Source: Microvirga alba (GTDB taxonomy: Bacteria > Pseudomonadota > Alphaproteobacteria > Rhizobiales > Beijerinckiaceae). Taken from it: a stretch of DNA of 64,000 nt. How positions within the stretch are numbered: the stretch's first letter is position 1; each line of letters starts with the position of its first letter. The stretch lies in assembly GCF_015694465.1 (NCBI RefSeq), contig NZ_JADQDO010000002.1, positions 682,001 through 746,000 on the forward strand, in the 5' to 3' direction. The notes under the pieces are model-generated. The model worked only from the letters and a program-made list of their open reading frames with translations. It was not told where the DNA came from and ran no database searches. Positions 17,315 to 31,965 of this stretch are shown here, piece after piece. The translations under genes were made by a program, and so were the position numbers.

Positions 17315-18700
17315 ATGGTTGATATGGAACGGACGCGCCTGTCCCACGACGCTCGGCACCTGCGGCTCGACACCCTGGTCCGGTTGCGCTGGATCGCGAT
17401 TGCCGGTCAATCGGTCGCCGTGGCAGGGGTGCGGTTCGGTCTGGGTTTCCACCTCCCGTTCGGCTTTTGCTTCCTGGTGATCGCAGCCTCGATCTGGGTC
17501 AATCTGATCCTGCGCATCCGTTACCCGGCCAGTTACCGGCTCCGCGACAACGCCGCGACGGCCCTTCTCGCCTTCGACATCCTGCAGCTCGCGGCCCTGC
17601 TCTACCTGACCGGTGGCCTCACGAACCCGTTTTCGCTGCTGTTTCTCGTGCCCGTCCTGATCTCGGCCGCCTCCCTGACGCCGGAACGGACCCTCGGATT
17701 GGGGCTTCTCGCGGTCGGCGCCGCGACCCTGCTCGTGCTCGCGCACCGGCCGTTGCCCTGGTTTCCCGGCCAGAGCCTGAGCCTGCCCTTTCTCTATGTC
17801 ACCGGAATCTGGACGGCGATCCTGCTCGGCATCGTCTTCACCGGCATCTATGCCTGGCGCGTGGCCGAGGAAGCGCGCCAGCTTGCTCAAGCGCTTGCGG
17901 CGACCGAACTGGTGCTCGCCCGCGAGCAGCACCTGTCCCAGCTCGACGGTCTGGCGGCGGCGGCGGCCCACGAACTCGGCACGCCGCTCGCCACCATCGC
18001 CCTCGTCGCGAAGGAGCTCGACCATGCGATGCCCCAGGAGGGCCCCATCGCGGAGGATTTGAAGCTTTTGCGCGAGCAGGTCGAGCGTTGCCGGACGATC
18101 CTGACCAAGCTGACCTCCATGGATCAGGATCAGGCCGGTTTTCTGGAGACGATTTCGCTCAGCCAGCTGGTCGAGGAGATCGTCGCGCCGCATCGTCCCC
18201 TTGGCCTCCCCATCGATGTCGTCTGCCAGGGCGAGGGACGCGAGCCGCTCGCGCGCAGAAGCCCCGGCGTGGTCTACGGATTGTCCAACATTCTCGACAA
18301 CGCCGCCGATTTCGCCCGGAGCCGCGTCACGATTACGGCGGCATGGACGCCGCTGGAGGTCTCGATCACGATCAGCGATGACGGGCCGGGCTATGCGCCC
18401 GACATCCTGCTGCGCGTCGGCGAGCCCTATGTCACGACGCGAAACGCCGCGAAGCGATCCGAGCTGGGCGAGGAATTCGGCGGGTCGGGTTTAGGGCTGG
18501 GGCTGTTCATTGCCAAGACCCTGCTCGAACGCTCCGGAGCGCAATTGACCCTCACGAACGCGGTTCCGCCCGCTTCCGGGGCCGTCGCACGGATCGTTTG
18601 GCCGCGTCATGCGTTTGACCAGGGTGCGGCAATATCGCCGCAGGGAGTTTCTGAAGCGGCTCTCGAAGACGAGGGGAAGAATTCCCATATGAGTGAGTGA
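17315..18700 (+). CDS. regB: Redox-sensing histidine kinase RegB/ActS/PrrB
   Basis: 461-residue membrane kinase of the global redox system controlling aerobic/anaerobic respiration and carbon or nitrogen assimilation genes in alphaproteobacteria. About six membrane segments (25-190); the ubiquinone-binding motif GGLTNPF is at 100-106. Phosphoacceptor His219 lies in AAAAHELGTPLAT; the redox-active cysteine equivalent is Cys259 in ERCRTIL. HATPase motifs NILDNAADFA, DDGPGY and GSGLGLGLFIAK follow. The start at 17315 lacks a strong ribosome site; ATG 17324 is also possible. The regA gene follows 56 bp later, as in most relatives. Confidence 0.95.
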   Translation: MVDMERTRLSHDARHLRLDTLVRLRWIAIAGQSVAVAGVRFGLGFHLPFGFCFLVIAASIWVNLILRIRYPASYRLRDNAATALLAFDILQLAALLYLTGGLTNPFSLLFLVPVLISAASLTPERTLGLGLLAVGAATLLVLAHRPLPWFPGQSLSLPFLYVTGIWTAILLGIVFTGIYAWRVAEEARQLAQALAATELVLAREQHLSQLDGLAAAAAHELGTPLATIALVAKELDHAMPQEGPIAEDLKLLREQVERCRTILTKLTSMDQDQAGFLETISLSQLVEEIVAPHRPLGLPIDVVCQGEGREPLARRSPGVVYGLSNILDNAADFARSRVTITAAWTPLEVSITISDDGPGYAPDILLRVGEPYVTTRNAAKRSELGEEFGGSGLGLGLFIAKTLLERSGAQLTLTNAVPPASGAVARIVWPRHAFDQGAAISPQGVSEAALEDEGKNSHMSE

Positions 18701-18756
18701 GCTTTCCAGGCTCACTTCGCGCAAGGAGTCTTCTCAGGATGCAGGGAGATGTTCTG

Positions 18757-19314
18757 ATGGCCGACGCGCCCGTTGCGTTTGAGGACCGTGTCGACAAGAG
18801 CCTCTTGATCGTGGACGACGACCGGCCGTTTTCCACCCGTCTTGCTCGCGCGATGGAAATGCGCGGCTATCAGGTCCGCGTCGCGGAGAGCGTGGCCGAT
18901 GGATTGGCCGCGATCGAATCGGACGCCCCCGCCTTTGCCGTCATCGACATGCGGCTTGGCGACGGCAACGGGCTCGACGTGATCGAGCGATTGAAGAACC
19001 GGCGCCCCGATGCGCGCGGCGTTATTCTCACCGGCTACGGCAACATCGCCACCGCCGTGACCGCCGTGAAGATGGGTGCGTTCGACTATCTCGCCAAACC
19101 GGCCGATGCGGACGAGATCCACTCGGCGCTGATGGCCCAACCCGGTGAGCGGGCGACCCCGCCGGAAAACCCGATGTCCGCCGACCGGGTGCGTTGGGAG
19201 CATATCCAACGGGTTTACGAACTCTGCGGCCGCAACGTCTCGGAGACGGCGCGTCGCCTCAACATGCACCGCCGTACGCTGCAGCGGATCTTGGCGAAGC
19301 GCGCGCCGCGCTAG
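18757..19314 (+). CDS. regA: Response regulator RegA/ActR/PrrA
   Basis: 185-residue DNA-binding regulator phosphorylated by RegB. Receiver domain with LLIVDDDRPF, phosphoacceptor Asp64 in FAVIDMRLGDGNG, and LTGYGNIATAVTAVKMGAFDYLAKPA. The Fis-type C-terminal helix-turn-helix VRWEHIQRVYELCGRNVSETARRLNMHRRTLQRIL is almost invariant in the family. ATG 18757 is chosen with AGGGAG 8 bases upstream; that gives the family's usual length of about 184. ATG 18739 behind AAGGAG is an alternative. Confidence 0.97.
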   Translation: MADAPVAFEDRVDKSLLIVDDDRPFSTRLARAMEMRGYQVRVAESVADGLAAIESDAPAFAVIDMRLGDGNGLDVIERLKNRRPDARGVILTGYGNIATAVTAVKMGAFDYLAKPADADEIHSALMAQPGERATPPENPMSADRVRWEHIQRVYELCGRNVSETARRLNMHRRTLQRILAKRAPR

Positions 19315-19396: not shown

Positions 19397-20788
19397 TTAG
19401 AGATAGAAATCGGTCGCCATCAACATGGCAGCCTTCATGGCGGTGAGAGTGATTTTGCCCTCCGACGGCAAGAGAATTTCCGCACTGCCAGCGGCATTGT
19501 CGCGAATCGTCAGCGCAGCAAAATCCTTGAGGTGGAAGCTGGTCAGGTCGATCTTGTCGCCTTGGCTGCGCGAGAAGTCACCGATTGTGTCGAAACCATC
19601 TCCTGCGGCGAAGACGAATCGATCAGCGCCGCCTCCACCGAAGATCAGGTCGTTGCCCGCGCCACCGTGGATCGTGTCGTTCCCACCGACGACCAAATTA
19701 CCCTGGACGCCTAGGAAATCGCCGTAGATTTCGTCATTACCGGCACCACCGAATATCAGATCGTTGCCGCCCCGTGCATTTCCGGATGCATCGCGAGCAT
19801 CTCCAAAGATTTGCTCATTGCCAAAGCTGCCATAGATGGTGTCGTTTCCGCCAACGGTATTGCCCGACATCGTCCCCGCATCGCCGGCCGGGCCGCCAGA
19901 GACAGCGCCAATCAGCGTGGTGCCAGCCTTGGCGTAGATCACGTCGTTGCCGCCTTGGGCATATCCGGACATGCTGCTGGCGTCGCCATAGGCATTGCCA
20001 CCGTAAATTACGTCGTCGCCACCGCGCGTGAAATCGCTCATGAATTCTGCGTCGCCGGCGACATGGGCGTTCTGGCTCTCTGTGGCATAGATTAGATCAT
20101 TGCCGCCAACCGCGTGGCCCAGCATCTTCACGGCATCACCGTAAAGGAACTCCGCTCCGAAATCGTACGAAGTCCCGGAAAAGAGCTTGTCATTGCCGCC
20201 GCGGGTATAACCATCCATGAGATACGCATCGCCGCGCAACTGGTCGTTGCCTGCACCACCGTGCAGATAGTCGTCGCCGCCGACGGCCTTGTCATGCATC
20301 TGCGTCGCGTCGCCGATCAGGACGTCGTTACCGTTGCCTCCGTACAGCTTGTCGTTGCCGCCACGAGTCGAGTTCCACATGTAGGAGGCATCACCCACAA
20401 TGATGTCGTCGCCATCCTCGCCGAAGAGCACGTCGGCGCCGCCCTTCGCGTAGTTCTTCATCGTGTAGCCGTCGCCGTAGAGAGCATCGGAACCGGCGCC
20501 GCCCTTGAGGACGTCATTCCCGCCTCTGGCGTAACGCAAGAGTGAGAAGGCGTCGCCATAAAGGTAATCCTTGCCGGCTCCGCCATAGAGGTAGTCAGCG
20601 CCGCCGATACCGGCTGCAGTGATTGTCAACGCATCGCCGAATAGCTTGTCGTTATCGCCGAGGCCGAACAGCTTGTCGTTGCCGCCGTAGCCAAAGTTCA
20701 AAGTACCTGCCGTATCCCCATAAATCGAATCTGGGAGCTCGGTGCCGATTAGAATATCAATGCCGCGTGTGCCAACGATCGTCGCCAT
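19397..20788 (-). CDS. RTX-type calcium-binding repeat protein, probable type I secretion substrate
   Basis: 463 residues, Gly/Asp rich, no N-terminal signal peptide. After a short start (MATIVGTRGIDILIGT) the protein is a run of RTX nonapeptides (GGNDxLxGG, AGNDxLYGD). A clear 27-residue period recurs about ten times, built of three nonapeptides, one of which is the variant GDAxxMxxx (with AYLM, TQM, EFM, GTM). It ends with the serralysin-like cap GGGGADRFVFAAGDGFDTIGDF and a hydrophobic tail. RTX proteins fold on calcium outside the cell and are exported by type I systems through C-terminal signals. No type I secretion genes are near. ATG at 20788 has AAGGATACATTC upstream. Function beyond calcium binding is unknown; adhesin or surface-layer roles are possible. 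Confidence 0.88.
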   Translation of the reverse strand: MATIVGTRGIDILIGTELPDSIYGDTAGTLNFGYGGNDKLFGLGDNDKLFGDALTITAAGIGGADYLYGGAGKDYLYGDAFSLLRYARGGNDVLKGGAGSDALYGDGYTMKNYAKGGADVLFGEDGDDIIVGDASYMWNSTRGGNDKLYGGNGNDVLIGDATQMHDKAVGGDDYLHGGAGNDQLRGDAYLMDGYTRGGNDKLFSGTSYDFGAEFLYGDAVKMLGHAVGGNDLIYATESQNAHVAGDAEFMSDFTRGGDDVIYGGNAYGDASSMSGYAQGGNDVIYAKAGTTLIGAVSGGPAGDAGTMSGNTVGGNDTIYGSFGNEQIFGDARDASGNARGGNDLIFGGAGNDEIYGDFLGVQGNLVVGGNDTIHGGAGNDLIFGGGGADRFVFAAGDGFDTIGDFSRSQGDKIDLTSFHLKDFAALTIRDNAAGSAEILLPSEGKITLTAMKAAMLMATDFYL

Positions 20789-23457: not shown

Positions 23458-25992
23458 ATGGAGCGGGATCCGCTGCGCCTCGCCTGGAAGACGAAACCGC
23501 TTCGGCATGTTTTCGGGTTCCTGCTTCTGACGATCGCCGGACTTTTCCTTCTTCTCGGCTTCGATCTCGTCCGCATCGTTGTGGACCGCGCGCTGGCGGG
23601 TGGCGAGGTGCTGGAGGCGACCTCGGCTTTCCTGCGCATCGCCATCACTCCCTTCGGAACCGTGCGGGCGGAACCGTTGGTGCTTTTTCCGGGCTTCGCG
23701 CTTAATCGCTCGGCTTTCGCGATAGCCTCCATCGGCGGCGTGGTTTTGGTGCCGCTCCTCATCGCCCTCACCCTGACCGTCCTCGACTGGATTGCGGTCG
23801 GCATCGGCGCGGCGGTTCTGGCCCGAATTCGGGCGGCCATTCTGGACGCGGTGCTCAAGGCCCCGCCCTCGGCGCAGGACGAGGTCGAAACGATGACCGC
23901 CCTCGGCAGCGTCACACTGGCCCGTGAAGGCAGCATTCTCGGGTCCGCGCTGTTCGTCCCGGTCAGGCTGGGCGGCATGGTTGGGCTCGCGGTCGCCTAT
24001 GTGCTGGCCACCGATTGGCGGCTCGGCGCGGCGCTCACCGTCGTTCTGGCCCTCGGGGGCGTGGTGAATGCCCACCGCCTGGCCTTGCGGGTGAACGCGG
24101 TCAAGGCCCGGCACCGGGACGGCGAGACCACCGAAGCGGCTTTGGCCGACCTGCGGCACCGCGTGCCTGCGGTGAGGGCTCATGGAACGGGCCCCTATGA
24201 GCGGGACCGGGTGCGCCGGGCTATGGTTTCAGGCCACCGACCCGTCGAAACGCGGGAGCGACGTCTCGCGCTGACCGAATCGCTCGCCGCGACCGTCCTC
24301 ATGCTCGCGCCCTTGACCGTTCTGGCCCTCGGCGTCTGGCTCACGCCGGACCGTCCGGTGACGGCGGGCGCGTTCGCCGCCAGCATCCTCGCAGCCGGCC
24401 TCGCCGCGTTCGGCGTCCGCGAGTTGATCCTGTGGCAGCGTCTCGCCAATCGCGCCCACGCGCTTCTGTCGGACGTCGCCCAGGGCTTGATCGCCCTGCA
24501 TCCGCACGATCAGCCCAAAACCCCCGCGCCCCTGCCGAAGAGCGGCGCCCTGGTCGCGCAAGGCGTGTCGGCCTATGACCCCGCGACCGGCACCCGGATC
24601 ACCGGCGTAAACCTCGACCTCGCCTTTCCGTCCCATGTGGCCCTTGTGGGCGACGGGGATTCGGGTCCGCGCGTCTTTGCGGCCCTCATCGGCGGTCAGC
24701 TCCAGCCCTCCACCGGGCATCTGGCTTTCGGTGGCGCCGATCTGGCCGCCATCGACCCCATCGAGCGCGTCCACCGCATTGCTCTCGCAGGCGAAACAAT
24801 CCTGATCCCCGGCACTTTGCGCGAAAATCTCCTCTACGGCGCGGCCGCCCCGGAACAGGACATCGAGCGGCGCCTGTCGGAGGCCATCGCGGTCGCCGGC
24901 CTCGACCGGCTGACCCATGCGCGGGGCCTTTCGGGCACCCTCAACCCGAAGCGCGAGCCGGAGATCGCCGCCGCTCTCGTGGAGTCCCGCCGCGCCGTCC
25001 AGACGGCCCTCGCGCGCGAGGCGCTCGACCACTTCGTCGACCCCTTCAACGCCGAGCGCTACAATCGCTACGCGACGTTGGGCGAAAACCTTCTGTTCGG
25101 GAAGGCGATCGGTGACACCTTCCGGGAGGATCGGCTGTCGGGCCATCCCTTCGTGCGGGCGATCCTGGAAGCCGAGGACCTGACCAAGCCGCTCGCGCGG
25201 ATCGGCCTGTCGATCGCCACCAGCATGATCGAAATCTTCGCCGAGATCCCCGACGGCCACCCGCTTTTCGAGCGTTTCGGCTTCTTTTCCGCGACCGACC
25301 GCACCTATTTCGAGGATCTGGTCGAACGGCGAACCGAAAGACGGCGCGGCGTGCAGACCGGGCGCGACCAGGAGCGCCTGATCGGCCTTGCCTTGCGCTA
25401 CAACGAGAGCAGACACCGCCTGGGCCTTCTCGACGAGGCCATGGAGGCACGCATTCTGAGCGCGCGCGCGGATTTCACCCGCATGTTGCCGGTCAGCCTC
25501 CAGCCCGCCATCGAATTCTATGACCAGAACCGTTTCTGCGCGGCGGCCAGCGTTCAGGACAATGTGCTGTTCGGGCGCATCGCCTCCGATCAGGCGGGGG
25601 CCGCCGATGCTGTGCAGAGCGTGATCCGCCGGGTGCTCACCGAGCGCGGCCTCGATGCCGAGGTGTCGCGCATCGGCCTCAACATGCCCATCGACATCCA
25701 GGGCAACGATCTCACCTTGAGCGAGATCGCTGCGGTCGATCTGGTGCGCTGCCTTGTGCGGCAGCCGGATATTCTCGTCGTGCAGCGCGCGCTCGACGGC
25801 CTGCCGGGTCCCGCCGCCGACAAGCTTGTCGCGAACCTGCGCCGCTCGCGGGTGGGACAGGGCCTGATCCTTGTGACGCCGGAAGTCACCGCGGCGATGG
25901 ATCAACCGCCTTTCGACACCGTTATTCGTTTCGAACGCGGAGAGCCGGTGGCGGAGAGTCGCGTCCGGGAGCGCGAGGCGGTCCCGGCGTGA
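23458..25992 (+). CDS. ABC exporter-like membrane protein with degenerate nucleotide-binding domain
   Basis: 844 residues. Residues 18-330 hold an exporter-type membrane domain with about five to six hydrophobic segments and a long coupling region. From about 365 an ABC-ATPase fold begins (GVSAYDPATGTRITGVNLDLAFPSHVALVGDG...). The P-loop equivalent is G398-DGDSGPRV: Pro404 and Arg405 replace the catalytic Lys and Ser. The signature region reads LTLSEIAAVD (749-760) instead of LSGGQ. Walker B reads PDILVVQRALDGL, with Gln776 and Arg777 replacing Asp and Glu. The normal ~230-residue ATPase is stretched to about 480 by an insertion (roughly 455-700). The motif ENLLYG/ENLLFG/DNVLFG, normally once per domain, occurs three times. 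ATP hydrolysis is therefore very unlikely. An MBL hydrolase gene follows about 100 bp downstream on the same strand. Confidence 0.85.
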   Translation: MERDPLRLAWKTKPLRHVFGFLLLTIAGLFLLLGFDLVRIVVDRALAGGEVLEATSAFLRIAITPFGTVRAEPLVLFPGFALNRSAFAIASIGGVVLVPLLIALTLTVLDWIAVGIGAAVLARIRAAILDAVLKAPPSAQDEVETMTALGSVTLAREGSILGSALFVPVRLGGMVGLAVAYVLATDWRLGAALTVVLALGGVVNAHRLALRVNAVKARHRDGETTEAALADLRHRVPAVRAHGTGPYERDRVRRAMVSGHRPVETRERRLALTESLAATVLMLAPLTVLALGVWLTPDRPVTAGAFAASILAAGLAAFGVRELILWQRLANRAHALLSDVAQGLIALHPHDQPKTPAPLPKSGALVAQGVSAYDPATGTRITGVNLDLAFPSHVALVGDGDSGPRVFAALIGGQLQPSTGHLAFGGADLAAIDPIERVHRIALAGETILIPGTLRENLLYGAAAPEQDIERRLSEAIAVAGLDRLTHARGLSGTLNPKREPEIAAALVESRRAVQTALAREALDHFVDPFNAERYNRYATLGENLLFGKAIGDTFREDRLSGHPFVRAILEAEDLTKPLARIGLSIATSMIEIFAEIPDGHPLFERFGFFSATDRTYFEDLVERRTERRRGVQTGRDQERLIGLALRYNESRHRLGLLDEAMEARILSARADFTRMLPVSLQPAIEFYDQNRFCAAASVQDNVLFGRIASDQAGAADAVQSVIRRVLTERGLDAEVSRIGLNMPIDIQGNDLTLSEIAAVDLVRCLVRQPDILVVQRALDGLPGPAADKLVANLRRSRVGQGLILVTPEVTAAMDQPPFDTVIRFERGEPVAESRVREREAVPA

Positions 25993-26089
25993 CAGTTTTT
26001 AGCCTTGACCGCCCTCGCAACTCGCGGTCACCTGCCTTGGTGTGCGCTATCGCACATCGAACGGGTGCCAGATTGGCGATGATGCTAAA

Positions 26090-26992
26090 ATGACTAGGCG
26101 AGCTGCATCGGTTGACGCGCTCCAGATCAGATTCTGGGGGGTCCGTGGCTCGACCTGTGCGTCAGGCCCGCAATTCGTCGAGTTCGGCGGCCATACTCCG
26201 TGTGTCGAGGTGCGGTGCGGCGAGCGCCTTTTCATCCTCGACGCCGGAACCGGGCTCTCCGCCTTGGGGGCCTCACTCGGCGCTGCGGCCCCGGCGAAGG
26301 TCGATATTCTTCTCAGTCACCTGCATCTGGACCATGTGAGCGGCCTGCCGTTCTTCAAGCCGGCGCTGCTCGGCAAGGACCGTGTTGTCCGCACGTATTG
26401 CGGCAATCTCGACGGTGAAAGCGCCAAGGCCTCGCTCGACCGGCTCTATTCGCCTCCGCTCTTTCCGATCCGCCTCGAACAGCTTCCGACCCGATTCGAG
26501 CATCACGGCTTCAAGGCGGGTGAAACCCTGACTTTCGACGATGGCATCAGCGTCGGAACCCATCCTTTGAATCATCCGGGCGGGGCGACCGGTTTCCGTT
26601 TCCATCACCGAGGCAGAAGCGTTTGCTACATCAGCGACGTGGAGCATAGCGACCCTTGGCCGGATCAGGGCCTCGCCGCTTTCATCCGCAACGCCGACCT
26701 GATGATTTACGACGGCATGTTCTCGGACACGGAATACAGTCATTGCCAGGGCTGGGGTCATTCGACCTGGCAGAAGGGCGTCGAACTCGCCCAGGCCGCC
26801 GGGGTGAAGGCCCTGGCGATCTTCCATCTCTATCCCGGCCACGACGACGCGTTCCTGAAAGCCGCCGAGAAGGAGATGCAAGCCGTGATGCCGACAGCCT
26901 TCATTGCCCGCGAGCGCCAGGGCATCGCGCTTGCTCCTGCTAGGGAAGCGGTTGCGGATCGGATGCAGGCCGCTAAGGTGCCCGCGATCTAA
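26090..26992 (+). CDS. MBL-fold metallohydrolase
   Basis: 300-residue metallo-beta-lactamase-fold protein. Metal motif SHLHLDHVSG (HxHxDH), preceded by FWGVRGSTCASGP and CVEVRCGERLFILDAGTGL, then HPLNHPGGATGFRF, CYISDVEHSD and AIFHLYPGHDD give the later ligands. The WGVRGS start and overall layout match phosphodiesterase-like MBL proteins (cyclic-nucleotide or phosphonate-related). The substrate is not known. ATG 26090 is used; a GTG at 26042 is less likely. It follows the degenerate ABC-like gene in the same direction, and a functional link is possible. Confidence 0.88.
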   Translation: MTRRAASVDALQIRFWGVRGSTCASGPQFVEFGGHTPCVEVRCGERLFILDAGTGLSALGASLGAAAPAKVDILLSHLHLDHVSGLPFFKPALLGKDRVVRTYCGNLDGESAKASLDRLYSPPLFPIRLEQLPTRFEHHGFKAGETLTFDDGISVGTHPLNHPGGATGFRFHHRGRSVCYISDVEHSDPWPDQGLAAFIRNADLMIYDGMFSDTEYSHCQGWGHSTWQKGVELAQAAGVKALAIFHLYPGHDDAFLKAAEKEMQAVMPTAFIARERQGIALAPAREAVADRMQAAKVPAI

Positions 26993-27011
26993 CAGACGCG
27001 GGTCTTCTTCA

Positions 27012-28019
27012 ATGTCAGCTCCCATCCTCGTCACGGGCGCGGCCGGTTTCATCGGCTTCCACGTGGCGCAGCGCCTCCTGAAGGCAGGCCACCATGTAGT
27101 CGGCGTCGACAGCTTCACGCCTTATTACGACGTGGCGTTGAAAGAGGCCCGCTTCGCCAACCTGACCCCGCACAACACGTTTCTCGGCGAGCGCCTCGAT
27201 CTCGCCGACGCGCAGGCGACCAAAGACCTGTTCCAGCGCCATCGGTTCAAGCGGGTGATCCACCTCGCGGCACAGCCCGGCGTGCGGTTCGTCGATCCGC
27301 AGCCCTATGTGACGTCCAACCTCGTCGCCTTCACCAACATGCTCGAGGCTTGCCGTCATGGCGGCATCGAGCATCTGGTTTATGCCTCGTCGAGCTCGGT
27401 CTATGGCGCGAACCGCAAGCTGCCGTTCTCGGAGCACGACGCGGCGGACCACCCGATCAGCCTCTATGCCGCGACGAAAAAGGCGAACGAGATGATGGCG
27501 CATTCCTATGCCCATCTCTTCGGCTTGCCCTCCACCGGGCTTCGCTTCTTCACGGTCTATGGCCCCTGGGGACGGCCGGACATGGCGGTCTACACCTTTA
27601 CCCGCGCCATCGCCGAGGGCCGCGAGATTCAGGTCGCGAACGCGGGCAAGGTCTGGCGCGACTTCACCTATGTGGACGACATCGTGGAAGGCATCGTGCG
27701 CCTCGTCGGGAGGGCGGCCTCACCCGATCCGGCCTGGAACGCTGAAAACCCCGATCCGGCGACCAGCGCCGCGCCGCACCGGGTCTACAATATCGGCAAC
27801 GACAACCCGGAAGAGGTGAACCGCCTCATCGCGCTCATCGAGGATGCGCTCGGCCGAAAAGCGATCCGGGTCGACAAGCCCCTGCCTCCCGGCGACGTGC
27901 TGGAAACCCGCGCCGACGTCTCGGATCTGCGCCGCGACGTGGGCTTCGCGCCCTCGATCTCCCTGGAGGAGGGGGTGCGCCGCTTCGTGGCGTGGTACAA
28001 GACTTACCACGGCGCCTGA
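27012..28019 (+). CDS. lpsL: UDP-glucuronate 4-epimerase-type SDR (LpsL-like)
   Basis: 335-residue NAD-dependent sugar epimerase converting UDP-glucuronate to UDP-galacturonate for surface polysaccharide. Nucleotide-binding GAAGFIGFHVA at the N-terminus, the family stretch VDSFTPYYDVALKEAR, AAQPGVRFV, the catalytic YAATKK (YxxxK) and GPWGRPDMA. Start ATG 27012 (MSAPILVTG), 20 bp after the MBL gene. Next gene starts 2 bases after its stop, so it is operonic with the WecA-like transferase. The epimerase subtype is assigned by overall likeness; related CapI/WbpP enzymes are alternatives. Confidence 0.88.
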   Translation: MSAPILVTGAAGFIGFHVAQRLLKAGHHVVGVDSFTPYYDVALKEARFANLTPHNTFLGERLDLADAQATKDLFQRHRFKRVIHLAAQPGVRFVDPQPYVTSNLVAFTNMLEACRHGGIEHLVYASSSSVYGANRKLPFSEHDAADHPISLYAATKKANEMMAHSYAHLFGLPSTGLRFFTVYGPWGRPDMAVYTFTRAIAEGREIQVANAGKVWRDFTYVDDIVEGIVRLVGRAASPDPAWNAENPDPATSAAPHRVYNIGNDNPEEVNRLIALIEDALGRKAIRVDKPLPPGDVLETRADVSDLRRDVGFAPSISLEEGVRRFVAWYKTYHGA

Positions 28020-28020
28020 C

Positions 28021-29049
28021 ATGATCTCCGCTCACCTTCCGATTCTCATCACTCTGTCTATCGTTCTCATCGCCTCGGCTGCCTTGTCGGCTCTGCTGAT
28101 CGTCGTCTTGAAGCCGCTGCTGATCCGCTACGCCCTGGCGCGTCCCAACGCGCGCTCCAGCCATAAGGTGCCGACGCCGCAAGGGGGCGGCATCGCAATC
28201 ATCGTCGCGACCGTGATCGTCTTGATCGCGGTGGCCGCCGCTCTGGGAGCCTCCTCAAGCACTTTTGCGATCCTCGCAACCTCGACGATCGTGCTGGCGT
28301 TCGTGGGGGCCATCGACGACATCCGCCCGCTGCCGGCAGGACCGCGCCTTGCGCTTCAGGTCATCGCCGTGGCGGCGGTTGTGCTGACGAGTGACGCGCG
28401 CGTTTTCCCCGACGCTATTCCTCTCGGTCTTGAGCGCGCGTTCCTCATCCTGGCCGGGGTCTGGTTCGTGAACCTCGTCAATTTCATGGATGGACTCGAC
28501 TGGATCACCGTGGCCGAAATGGTGCCGATCACCGCTTTTCTGGCGCTCCTCGGTGTGTTCGGCCCGCTGTCGCCGCTGGCGGCCCTCGCCGCCGCCGCTC
28601 TATGCGGCGCGCTTCTCGGCTTCGCGCCTTTCAACAAGCCGGTTGCCCGCCTTTTCATGGGCGATGTCGGCTCGCTCCCCATCGGGTTGCTGGTCGGCTG
28701 GCTGCTGCTGCAACTCGCCGGGACCGGTGCGCTGGCGGCGGCGATCCTTTTGCCGCTCTATCACCTGATGGATGCCACCATAACCCTGCTGCGGCGCTTG
28801 GCGCGACGCGAGAAAGTGTGGGAGGCCCATCGCAGCCATTTCTACCAGCGGGCCACCGATAACGGCTTCTCGGCCCTGTCGGTGAGCGGGCATGTCTTTG
28901 CGCTCAACATCATGCTTGGCGGTCTCGCGGCGGTGACGATCATCTGGCCGTCCGCTCTTGCCCAGGCGGCGAGTCTGGTCGCGGGCGTCGCTCTCGTCAG
29001 TCTGCTGCTCAGGCATTTCTCGACACGCCGCCCGGAGGTTTCGCGATGA
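28021..29049 (+). CDS. Polyprenyl-phosphate sugar-phosphate transferase, MraY/WecA (glycosyltransferase 4) family
   Basis: 342-residue integral membrane enzyme with about ten hydrophobic segments that attaches the first sugar phosphate to undecaprenyl phosphate to begin O-antigen or capsule repeat synthesis. Family motifs: RPNARSSHKVPTPQGGG near residue 40, FVGAIDD, NFMDGLDWITV and FMGDVGSLPIG, and a cytosolic loop RREKVWEAHRSHFYQRA. The YQRA ending resembles the WbpL/WecA-like branch in polysaccharide clusters. ATG 28021 is 2 bp after the epimerase stop. Confidence 0.92.
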   Translation: MISAHLPILITLSIVLIASAALSALLIVVLKPLLIRYALARPNARSSHKVPTPQGGGIAIIVATVIVLIAVAAALGASSSTFAILATSTIVLAFVGAIDDIRPLPAGPRLALQVIAVAAVVLTSDARVFPDAIPLGLERAFLILAGVWFVNLVNFMDGLDWITVAEMVPITAFLALLGVFGPLSPLAALAAAALCGALLGFAPFNKPVARLFMGDVGSLPIGLLVGWLLLQLAGTGALAAAILLPLYHLMDATITLLRRLARREKVWEAHRSHFYQRATDNGFSALSVSGHVFALNIMLGGLAAVTIIWPSALAQAASLVAGVALVSLLLRHFSTRRPEVSR

Positions 29050-29978
29050 ACGCTCCCCTGATTGCGCTGACCGGTGCGACCGGCTTCATCGGCCGTCATC
29101 TGCTCAGCGAGTTGCCGAAGCGCGGCTATCGGGTGCGCGTGCTGCTGCGCCGTCCCTCGGAGGTGCCACCGGGCGCGTCGAGCGCGGTCATCGGCGACAT
29201 CGCCTCGCCGCAGAACATGTCAGCCGCCTTGCGCGACGTGGATGCGGTGATCCATTCGGCGGGCCTGGCTCATGCCATGTCGGGACGGCCGGAAGACGAT
29301 TACCGCGCCATCAACACGCAGGGCACCATCGCCTTGGCGCAAGGAGCGGAGCGGGCGGGCGTGAAACGCTTTGTCTTCCTCTCCTCCATCCGCGCCCAGA
29401 GCGGACCGACGGCCGCAATCGTCCTGACCGAAGACCAGGAGCCGTGCCCCACCGATGCCTATGGTCGCTCCAAGCTTGAAGCCGAACAGGGATTGAGCGC
29501 GCTGTCGATCGACTGGGCGGCTTTGCGGCCGGTGCTCGTCTATGGGCCTGGGGTGAAGGGCAACATGGCGGCGCTGTTGGCGCTCGCGCAGTCGCGCTGG
29601 CCTCTGCCCCTCGGCGGGCTCAAAGCTGAGCGCTCGCTGCTCTCGCTCGACAATCTGGCGGCAGCGGTGGACACGGTGCTGAAGGCGCAAGGACCTCTCA
29701 GGCGGCCCTTCATCGTGGCCGATCCGGAGCCGGTGACGGTGCCGCAGATCGTGGCCGCCCTTCGCGCCGGTCTCGGGCGTAGTCCGGGGTTGATCCCGGT
29801 GCCGTCGCTTTTCTTGAAAGGCGCGGCAGCGCTCACGGGGCGGACGGAAGCCTATGAGCGGCTCGCGGGCTCGCTCGTCGCGAGCCCGAAGGCGTTGAAC
29901 CAGCTTGGCTGGGAGCCGGTTACCGCGACGCGAGACGCGCTGGCGCAGCTGGCTCGGGAGCTTGCTCGCGGCGCTTGA
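29046..29978 (+). CDS. NAD-dependent sugar epimerase/dehydratase (extended SDR)
   Basis: 310 residues. Rossmann motif TGATGFIGRHLL at residues 9-20, HSAGLAHAM, FLSSIRAQSG and catalytic YGRSK (YxxxK). Resembles the WbpV/WbpK-type epimerases that supply the sugar used by WecA-like transferases such as WbpL. The exact sugar is unknown. Its ATG overlaps the preceding stop by 4 bases (ATGA), indicating translational coupling. Its 3' end overlaps the convergent CapD-type gene by 59 bp. Confidence 0.88.
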   Translation: MNAPLIALTGATGFIGRHLLSELPKRGYRVRVLLRRPSEVPPGASSAVIGDIASPQNMSAALRDVDAVIHSAGLAHAMSGRPEDDYRAINTQGTIALAQGAERAGVKRFVFLSSIRAQSGPTAAIVLTEDQEPCPTDAYGRSKLEAEQGLSALSIDWAALRPVLVYGPGVKGNMAALLALAQSRWPLPLGGLKAERSLLSLDNLAAAVDTVLKAQGPLRRPFIVADPEPVTVPQIVAALRAGLGRSPGLIPVPSLFLKGAAALTGRTEAYERLAGSLVASPKALNQLGWEPVTATRDALAQLARELARGA

Positions 29979-31875
29979 ATTCGGGAATCGCGTCCTCGAA
30001 CACCCGCTCCGCCGCCTTGCGGTCGCCCGCAGCCAGGGTCTCGACCAGAGTCTCAAGCCAGCGATCGACCTTGGCGCGGTCGGCAAAAACGGGCTTTGCC
30101 GCCATCACTCCGTCGATTCCGATTTCGGCGCGCGGCTCCTCGCGAGCGAAGAGGATTTCGTGCAGGCGCTCGCCGGGGCGCGTGCCGGTGACGGAAATCT
30201 CGATGTCTTCCCCCGGCTCGAAGCCCGCGAGACGGATCATGCGCTCGGCGAGTTCATAGATGCGCACCGGCTGGCCCATCTTGAGCACATAGACGGACGC
30301 GCGCTCATCGTTGTTGGCCCCGTCCGTCTGCAGCCGGCCCTCGTCATCCGCGTGAGAGGCGGAGGTGAGCACCAGATCGGCCGCTTCGCGCATGGTCATG
30401 AAATAGCGCACCATGTCGGGATGGGTGACGGTGACCGGCCCGCCGCGCGCGATCTGCGCCTTGAATTTCGGCACCACCGAGCCGACCGAGCCGAGCACGT
30501 TGCCGAACCGCACGGCGATGATGCGCGTCGCGCCGTTGCGGCCCATGAATTCCGCGTCGAGCGCCTGCCCGTACATCTCGGCCAGGCGCTTCGTCGCGCC
30601 GAGCATGGAGACCGGATCGATGGCCTTGTCGGTCGAAATGATGACGATGGCGCCTGCCCCCGCCTCGACCGCCGCATCGGCCACGTTCACCGAGCCGAAC
30701 ACGTTGGTCTTGATGCCCTCGGTCCAATCCTTCTCGAGATAGGGCACGTGCTTGAGGGCTGCGGCGTGGAACACCACGTCCGGGCGAAATTCGTTCATGA
30801 CGTCGAAGATGCGGTCGCGGTCGCGCACATCGGCGATGACGCCGTCCACCTTCGTGTCGCTCGCCAGGATGCTCGGATTTTCCAGAATGCCGTGCAGGGA
30901 CGGCTCGGAGAATTCGACGATGAGGAGGTCACTCGCCCCGAAGGCGACGACACGGTTGCAGATTTCTGAACCGATGGAGCCGCCGCCGCCCGTCACCAGA
31001 ACGCGCTTGCCGCGGATGAAATGCTCCAGCCGCTGCCGGTCGATCTGCACCGTCGGGCGCAGGAGCAGGTCTTCGATTTCGAGCGGCGCGAGTTCGGCGT
31101 CGCGCATGCCTTCCCCTAAGCTCGTGACTCGCACCAGCGGCAGGCCGAGGCGTCGGGCGCGCGCGATCAGCATGTCCGGATGGGCCTCGGGAGCCAGCGC
31201 GCTCGGGGTCGCGACGAGGCGGCGGATCGGGGTGCCACGCTCCTGGAAGTCCTGAATGACCTGATCGAGATCGACGAAGGTGCCGAGCACCGGCACGCCG
31301 CGGATCGACTGGCCGAGGTCGTCGGCGCGATAGGACAGAACGCCCTTCGGCTGAAGCTTCTTGACGGTCCCGGTCTCGATGGCGCGCAACATCACCTCGA
31401 TGTCGGTGCCGCGTCCGAGCAGCAGGATCGGGGTGTTGGCGTCCCGCTCCAGCGTATTGCGGGAACGGGCGTATTTTACATACCGGAAGGCCAGGCGCGG
31501 ACCGCCCAGAAGGAACATCTGGATCAGCCAGTACAGCGCGATCGTGATTTTGCCGAAGAAGAGACTGGAGAGCTGCGTCGAGACCAGGATGTAGTCGATG
31601 ACGAGCAGCGTCAGGGCCAAAACGCTCGTCGCGCGGAAGATATTGAACAGATCGGGCAGCGAGGCAAAGCGCCACTTCGAGCGATAAAGCTGGAAGAACC
31701 AGTAGACCACGCCCGCGAAGGCCACGAAGGGAGGCAGGAAGAGCGGCAGATGGCTGATGCGTTCCTGAAGAAGAGATCCTTCAAAACGCACGAAGAACGT
31801 CGCCATGACGGCGACCGCCGTCATCACGAGATCATGGAAGATGATGAGTGTTTTCTTGAAATCCTGGCGATTCAT
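29920..31875 (-). CDS. Membrane-bound nucleoside-diphosphate-sugar 4,6-dehydratase, CapD/WbpM/PglF family
   Basis: 651-residue inner-membrane enzyme that makes UDP-4-keto-6-deoxy sugars for polysaccharide. Four membrane segments in the first 130 residues, a CoA-binding-like domain (ILLLGRGTDIEVM), then the dehydratase domain with TGGGGSIGSEICN. The catalytic STDKAIDPVSMLGATKR has Met in place of Tyr, as in WbpM/PglF. It ends with a Pro/Ala-rich tail. ATG 31875 (MNRQDFKKT) is used; GTG 31887 is possible. It supplies substrate for the neighbouring WecA-like and epimerase genes on the other strand. Confidence 0.94.
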   Translation of the reverse strand: MNRQDFKKTLIIFHDLVMTAVAVMATFFVRFEGSLLQERISHLPLFLPPFVAFAGVVYWFFQLYRSKWRFASLPDLFNIFRATSVLALTLLVIDYILVSTQLSSLFFGKITIALYWLIQMFLLGGPRLAFRYVKYARSRNTLERDANTPILLLGRGTDIEVMLRAIETGTVKKLQPKGVLSYRADDLGQSIRGVPVLGTFVDLDQVIQDFQERGTPIRRLVATPSALAPEAHPDMLIARARRLGLPLVRVTSLGEGMRDAELAPLEIEDLLLRPTVQIDRQRLEHFIRGKRVLVTGGGGSIGSEICNRVVAFGASDLLIVEFSEPSLHGILENPSILASDTKVDGVIADVRDRDRIFDVMNEFRPDVVFHAAALKHVPYLEKDWTEGIKTNVFGSVNVADAAVEAGAGAIVIISTDKAIDPVSMLGATKRLAEMYGQALDAEFMGRNGATRIIAVRFGNVLGSVGSVVPKFKAQIARGGPVTVTHPDMVRYFMTMREAADLVLTSASHADDEGRLQTDGANNDERASVYVLKMGQPVRIYELAERMIRLAGFEPGEDIEISVTGTRPGERLHEILFAREEPRAEIGIDGVMAAKPVFADRAKVDRWLETLVETLAAGDRKAAERVFEDAIPEFKRREQAPEPAAPARLASR

Positions 31876-31965
31876 AGGCCCTGCCACCTTGCGAAAGGCG
31901 GTATCAGCCGCGCTTTTGCCTTTGTCAATCTGAGGTAGGCTGCGGTCTTGTGCTCCAAGAGCCGG

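Follow-up and report, generated by a model that had tools for sequence, protein, structure and literature searches.

An ABC-exporter-like protein of Microvirga alba without ATP-hydrolysis motifs, a candidate for a scaffolding or regulatory role at the membrane in a predicted cyclic-nucleotide pathway

A 64,000-nucleotide stretch of the Microvirga alba genome (4.42 Mb, 25 contigs), here called the window, carries a gene for an 844-amino-acid protein that resembles an ATP-binding cassette (ABC) exporter and has none of the residues expected of a working ATPase. Comparison of the protein with its close homologues (together, the 844-type) argues strongly that it is dead as an ATPase and indicates that the loss of its ATP motifs is old and common to the 844-type, while the gene itself is maintained under purifying selection. 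Its conserved neighbour encodes a metallo-beta-lactamase (MBL)-fold metallohydrolase, and its wider relatives are linked to genes for cyclic-nucleotide-binding (CNB) domains. On balance we favour, by a modest degree of confidence, a role as a non-pump membrane scaffold or regulator that would act with the downstream metallohydrolase in a predicted cyclic-nucleotide pathway. The gene and its motifs are laid out as follows.

23458..25992, + strand: ABC-exporter-like pseudo-ATPase, 844 aa (844-type), intact frame
23458..24525, + strand: predicted exporter-type transmembrane domain (aa 1-356), from AlphaFold2 helices and PDB alignments
24526..25977, + strand: predicted enlarged nucleotide-binding domain (NBD; aa 357-840)
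24574..24576, + strand: A-loop Tyr373, aromatic in 215/221 homologues; lying 25 positions ahead of Walker A by a count on the sequence
24649..24675, + strand: degenerate Walker A GDGDSGPRV (aa 398-406), with Lys in 0/221 homologues
25711..25725, + strand: degenerate signature LTLSE (aa 752-756)
25777..25794, + strand: degenerate Walker B VVQRAL (aa 774-779)

An initial annotation, made from the sequence alone, had described these three degenerate motifs in a protein that kept the markers of the ABC fold over a frame of 844 codons, and had proposed structural modelling as a check. The motifs and the intact frame are present as described. The Walker A Lys, the LSGGQ signature, the Walker B Asp and Glu and the H-loop His are all missing, such that no hallmark of an active ABC ATPase (Walker A GxxGxGK[ST], Walker B Asp plus Glu, LSGGQ, H-loop His) was found. 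Modelling with AlphaFold2 from an 80-row alignment returned a confident exporter fold (pLDDT 88.7, pTM 0.75), to which the exporter structures BmrCD, TAP, TmrAB, PCAT1 and MsbA align over nearly the whole length; model and alignments alike show the type I ABC exporter arrangement of transmembrane domain and NBD. The 844-type therefore resembles type I exporters such as MsbA, BmrCD and TmrAB over almost the whole exporter, but differs from them in lacking hydrolysis motifs and in having an NBD of about twice the normal size, enlarged via a triplicated helical segment. The closest named match is a protein of Microvirga terricola (83% identity, among the matches listed).

To assess conservation, three protein searches (at most 120 entries each) were made, listing 355 proteins; the 17 shorter than 790 aa were dropped, and the remaining 338 were aligned with 55 sequences from genome loci, 393 in all. 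Counts of motif residues given here and below are among the matches listed. The 221 close homologues fall into 103 Microvirga-type, 5 intermediate and 113 Methylobacterium-type sequences. Neither the Walker A Lys nor the catalytic Glu was found in any of them (0/103, 0/5 and 0/113 for each residue), and across the 221 the Walker B Asp was seen in 2, the H-loop His in 9 and the signature S-x-G in 1. The P-loop that replaces the canonical one is itself conserved, with Gly403 in 101/103 Microvirga-type and 112/113 Methylobacterium-type sequences and Arg405 in 91/103 and 105/113, respectively. Homologues retaining Walker residues, which the initial annotation had named as the sign of a recent decay, were looked for, and with Lys and Glu each in 0/221 such a decay is unsupported.

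The gene is also widely kept. All of the 48 Microvirga genomes surveyed, the host included, contain a match to the family: 46 have a full-length 844-type gene and all 48 have a second, more distant paralogue (the 905-type). The exceptions are G203, with the 844-type in two pieces, and G206, with the 905-type only. Ratios of nonsynonymous to synonymous substitution (dN/dS) were estimated by NG86 for the window gene and 40 further loci, a 41st having failed the filter, giving 370 non-independent pairs with dS of 0.05-0.8. Median dN/dS was 0.20 for the whole gene (maximum 0.54), 0.26 for the transmembrane domain, and 0.17 for both the NBD and the stretch inserted in it. Stronger constraint on the NBD than on the membrane domain is usual in ABC proteins (PMC7756269). 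Recent decay or a frameshift was thus rejected, given the full-length copies, the low dN/dS and the conserved altered P-loop. The non-ATPase role under selection put forward by the initial annotation stands because Lys and Glu are absent from all 221 homologues, 46/48 genomes keep the gene at full length and median dN/dS is 0.20; its further suggestion of a scaffold, regulator or sensor is, in these data, plausible only. In three genomes (G258, G373, G626) the 844-type match contains one stop codon in the matched stretch, possibly beyond the natural end of the gene.

The enlargement of the NBD, amounting to ~240-300 extra residues, involves the following features.

24823..24840, + strand: repeat 1 core ENLLYG (aa 456-461)
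24940..25509, + strand: inserted stretch between repeats 1 and 3, comprising repeat 2 and connecting helices (aa 495-684), common to the 905-type paralogue and wider relatives
25084..25101, + strand: repeat 2 core ENLLFG (aa 543-548)
25558..25575, + strand: repeat 3 core DNVLFG (aa 701-706)

Profile comparison of the NLLxG segments matched 1 with 3 (E=1.5e-10), 2 with 3 (E=1.1e-10) and, less closely, 1 with 2 (E=2e-4, 45.6% probability), against a best E of 0.04 in 12 comparisons involving three control segments. By this measure, a Q-loop/helical-subdomain segment occurs three times in the NBD. The duplication or insertion of ~250 residues suggested by the initial annotation can thus be described more closely as a triplicated segment, and the comparison goes beyond that annotation in marking it as an old family trait unlinked to motif loss. 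An enlarged NBD with three NLLxG repeats, the mark of the family, is present in the 844-type, and the same layout recurs in the 905-type paralogue and in class-wide relatives (those read on the right strand), so the enlargement is older than the loss of the ATP motifs. Among 52 aligned wider relatives, Lys is kept in 25 and Glu in 24, and Lys, Ser/Thr, Asp and Glu occur together in 3. Internal duplication as the cause of ATPase loss was rejected, since relatives that retain Lys or Glu share the repeats.

The initial annotation had also proposed a check for a conserved genomic partner, and one was found directly downstream.

26090..26992, + strand: MBL-fold metallohydrolase (PF12706), likely phosphodiesterase, with HxHxDH; the open reading frame (ORF) opens at 26042

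Of 80 named 844-type loci, 75 have an MBL gene no more than ~4 kb downstream in the same orientation; the stricter requirement of a full-ORF match gives 74. This gene is the conserved neighbour: polysaccharide genes are not conserved in the Methylobacterium 844-type loci, where the MBL gene is mostly kept. The HxHxDH motif is invariant in 30/30 aligned MBL proteins, and the protein thus combines the MBL fold and metal site by which class II (MBL) phosphodiesterases are recognised. Its best structural match in Foldseek is YhfI (E=1.5e-14), with RNase Z, Apyc1 and PDE1 among its further structural matches; as the VIA-align ranks lie close together, we claim neither a class II phosphodiesterase nor an RNase Z identity. 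Against NCBIfam NF041851 it scores 48 bits, below the cut-off of 400. PF12706 phosphodiesterases are termed atypical class II enzymes in PMC9293780, and YhfI prefers cAMP/cGMP according to PMC9117128. Like YhfI, Rv1339 and Apyc1, the partner has this fold and HxHxDH metal site; unlike them, it falls below the curated cut-off, has a predicted activity only and is encoded next to an ABC gene. From its sequence and predicted structure, the enzyme is likely a phosphodiesterase, with cyclic nucleotides as its predicted substrates. In two loci (L084:12706-13926 and L103) the ABC and MBL genes flank one for a YkuD-domain protein, a hint of a connection to the envelope; the protein of L084 scores 209 bits against NF040599 (peptidoglycan amidase-like; cut-off 365).

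To place the protein in its wider family, relatives were sought across higher taxa. They were found in 59 of 190 genomes of the class Alphaproteobacteria, and a search of 398 genomes of the phylum gave 31 with a match, all from this same class. In the 21 class loci first examined, a CNB protein of ~150 residues follows the ABC gene in every case, while an MBL gene was found in none of these 21. Overall, a CNB domain is fused or adjacent in 67/67 wider-family ABC genes examined: in 12 it is fused (9 genomes), in 54 it is a same-strand neighbour at a distance of less than 500 bp, and in one the distance is 616 bp, with fusions over-represented because some loci were chosen partly for long frames. 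The single-chain ABC-CNB frames span 1008-1133 residues in nine class genomes (L238:8994-12080, L245-L255). A phosphate-binding-cassette pattern is present in 61/70 CNB domains, and the nine without it include six of the twelve fusions. The family extends to Rhizobium and to Sinorhizobium meliloti, where pSymB carries the ABC and CNB genes together; in strain RCAM1750 the CNB gene has been given the annotation of a Crp/Fnr regulator. In the record of S. meliloti 1021 pSymB (L264) the ABC frame is broken, and in that of RCAM1750 (L265) it is a single annotated gene.

A search based on the MBL protein joined these two sets of partners. It gave a match in 45 of 121 genomes of the order, and 40 of the 45 loci were analysed (all but the window's own locus and four more). 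ABC, CNB and MBL genes occur together in 28 of the 40, on one strand in 28/28 and with both gaps below 300 bp in 24; a class III cyclase gene is also in the fetched stretch in 21 of these 28. The other loci have MBL and cyclase only (5) or MBL only (7), and MBL and cyclase genes are same-strand neighbours within 400 bp in 19/40. Two cyclases of the main cluster were checked by Pfam and the others identified by similarity. Near one MBL locus, a class III cyclase domain is fused to a 2Fe-2S ferredoxin (L207:8236-9954), with an N-terminal part that appears hydrophobic by eye; a DUF3095 protein (L228:10828-12153) belongs to a cluster seen in 6/40 MBL loci. In the flanks examined of the 80 844-type loci there was no CNB match, which sets these loci apart from the CNB-fused or CNB-adjacent arrangement of the family; on homology, the 844-type is a derived relative of the CNB-linked ABC family that is without a CNB domain. 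We infer its role in a cyclic-nucleotide pathway from linkage, fusion and homology. A search of the open-licence literature gave no account of the ABC family, of comparable ABC-CNB fusions or of an ABC-CNB-MBL-cyclase cluster.

The host's own 905-type paralogue bears on the history of the family.

L011:7270-9987: 905-type paralogue, 905 aa, 30% identity to the 844-type protein

A CNB gene follows it directly (L011:7270-10430), with divergent glycosyltransferase genes beside. The 905-type has also lost the Walker A Lys (0/120) and the catalytic Glu (0/120), and keeps the Walker B Asp (120/120). Its locus encodes an RTX-like protein nearby (L011:14718-17405, by eye). The CNB protein scores 40 bits against cyc_nuc_ocin (TIGR03896; cut-off 161), a group that is similar in consisting of CNB-domain proteins, with bacteriocin-type transport by its NCBIfam name; the match is, however, far under the cut-off, and in the present family CNB domains are also fused to the ABC chain. 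Anti-phage defence was considered and rejected, as PADLOC gives no hit for either ABC protein or for the MBL protein. Five of its models (TIR effectors and Pycsar proteins) do match the CNB protein encoded at the 905-type locus, and these matches are taken to reflect the generic CNB domain of that protein.

In a FastTree phylogeny of 107 sequences (local SH-like support only, midpoint root, no outgroup), the 844-type forms one group with SH-like support of 100 and a stem of 0.81. It sits inside a 34-row cluster together with 905-types from Beijerinckiaceae (which we take to be the family of these genomes), one other class member (L158) and L238, in whose genome an MBL gene adjoins the ABC-CNB fusion. 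The Walker Lys shows nine changes on the tree; changes in CNB were not used as evidence, since rows outside the 844-type were labelled CNB-positive by group. The simplest reading of the tree and gene order is that of an ancestral ABC-CNB protein, joined by MBL and cyclase within one order, with a later duplication and split in Beijerinckiaceae.

These data suggest how the parts might work together. In the ancestral cassette, the cyclase would make a cyclic nucleotide, a CNB domain docked on the NBD would read it, the MBL enzyme would degrade it, and the ABC protein would pass the resulting state across the membrane. Duplication in the Beijerinckiaceae line would then have divided the cassette, with CNB staying beside the 905-type copy and MBL beside the 844-type copy. 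The 844-aa protein is a half-transporter of predicted ABC-exporter fold. Its NBD dimer would have ceased to cycle on ATP, and the MBL enzyme may dock on the enlarged helical platform and so be held or controlled at the membrane. We tentatively extend this to the family: a self-contained make-bind-degrade-act cassette of Alphaproteobacteria (class III cyclase, CNB, MBL phosphodiesterase and ABC protein) in which the exporter fold might be switched not by ATP hydrolysis but by a cyclic nucleotide that binds to a CNB domain, itself either docked on the NBD or fused to it; such a protein would be a cyclic-nucleotide-gated ABC protein. The 844-type would be the end point, a dead ATP engine turned into a membrane platform for the phosphodiesterase; we consider this fuller scheme possible, with the odds against it.

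The reading that comes closest to competing is that the 844-type still binds adenine nucleotide and, by a binding-driven conformational switch, acts as a ligand-gated regulator or channel like CFTR or SUR. The A-loop aromatic is retained in 215/221 homologues, so nucleotide binding without hydrolysis is conceivable; the P-loop has gained a conserved Arg405, and the 905-type has no aromatic among the five commonest residues at the A-loop position. However, with the loss of the Walker A Lys, the signature and the two acidic residues of Walker B, the contacts to phosphate and Mg are missing; we regard such a gate as unlikely. In using ABC architecture for a channel or regulator and not a pump, CFTR and SUR do resemble the 844-type (PMC7756269). 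The 844-type differs from both in having no competent site and in belonging to a family linked to CNB, cyclase and phosphodiesterase-like genes. CFTR and SUR have retained ATP binding along with one or more competent sites, and we know of no linkage of either to CNB, cyclase or phosphodiesterase genes.

An envelope-polysaccharide export or assembly factor, with the cyclic-nucleotide genes regulating only its expression or activity, would fit the polysaccharide genes that adjoin the 844-type in Microvirga and the divergent glycosyltransferases beside many wider-family loci. Such neighbours are nonetheless not kept in Methylobacterium, whereas the MBL gene mostly is, and there is no ATP engine for export, which makes this role improbable. 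We also doubt that the 844-type is one half of a heterodimeric exporter with the ATPase supplied by its partner. Exporters of this fold work as dimers, the 905-type co-occurs in 48/48 genomes of the genus, and full-length and heterodimeric ABC proteins often carry degenerate sites (PMC7756269). As in TM287/288, TAP and ABCG5/G8, altered Walker and signature residues are evolutionarily fixed, and the Walker A Lys-to-Arg change described for ABCG5/G8 (same source) also occurs in operon relatives of the 844-type: the tree includes 26 operon ABC proteins from the order, all without the Lys, and 19 of them have Arg and 7 another residue. Those exporters, however, keep one good site in the composite dimer, whereas in this genus neither paralogue has the Lys (0/120 and 0/221), even though the 905-type keeps its Walker B Asp. 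No adjacent canonical exporter gene is present, although a partner encoded elsewhere in the genome is conceivable, and four genomes of genus g169 (G258, G365, G373, G490) have no 905-type match beside the 844-type (only top candidates were scored); obligate pairing of the two, both degenerate, is not favoured. Finally, a decaying pseudogene or sequencing error, to which the simultaneous change of all motifs, the stops in three matches and the two-piece gene of G203 might point, is refuted by 46/48 full-length copies, dN/dS of 0.20 and a conserved altered P-loop, with a loss that spans Microvirga and Methylobacterium.

Elsewhere in the window, a histidine kinase and response-regulator pair (17315-19314) lies upstream of the gene, as in most Microvirga loci and in Enterovirga. 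An RTX nonapeptide-repeat protein (HemolysinCabind) is encoded at 19397-20788 on the minus strand, and epimerase, GT4-type transferase, SDR and Polysacc_synt_2 genes at 26904-31887 form an apparent polysaccharide module.

The non-pump ABC proteins known to us (CFTR, SUR) still bind ATP. If the role favoured here, a membrane scaffold or regulator in a cyclic-nucleotide pathway, is correct, a machine driven by ATP can be turned into a device for second-messenger signalling. This idea is based on a bacterial exporter fold kept under selection without any hydrolysis residue, and on relatives physically fused to CNB domains. It also suggests a partner and a substrate class for an uncharacterised group of MBL enzymes, and the family is open to tractable genetics, as Methylorubrum species, for example M. 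populi (L102), have 844-type genes and both Sinorhizobium and Rhizobium have CNB-linked relatives.
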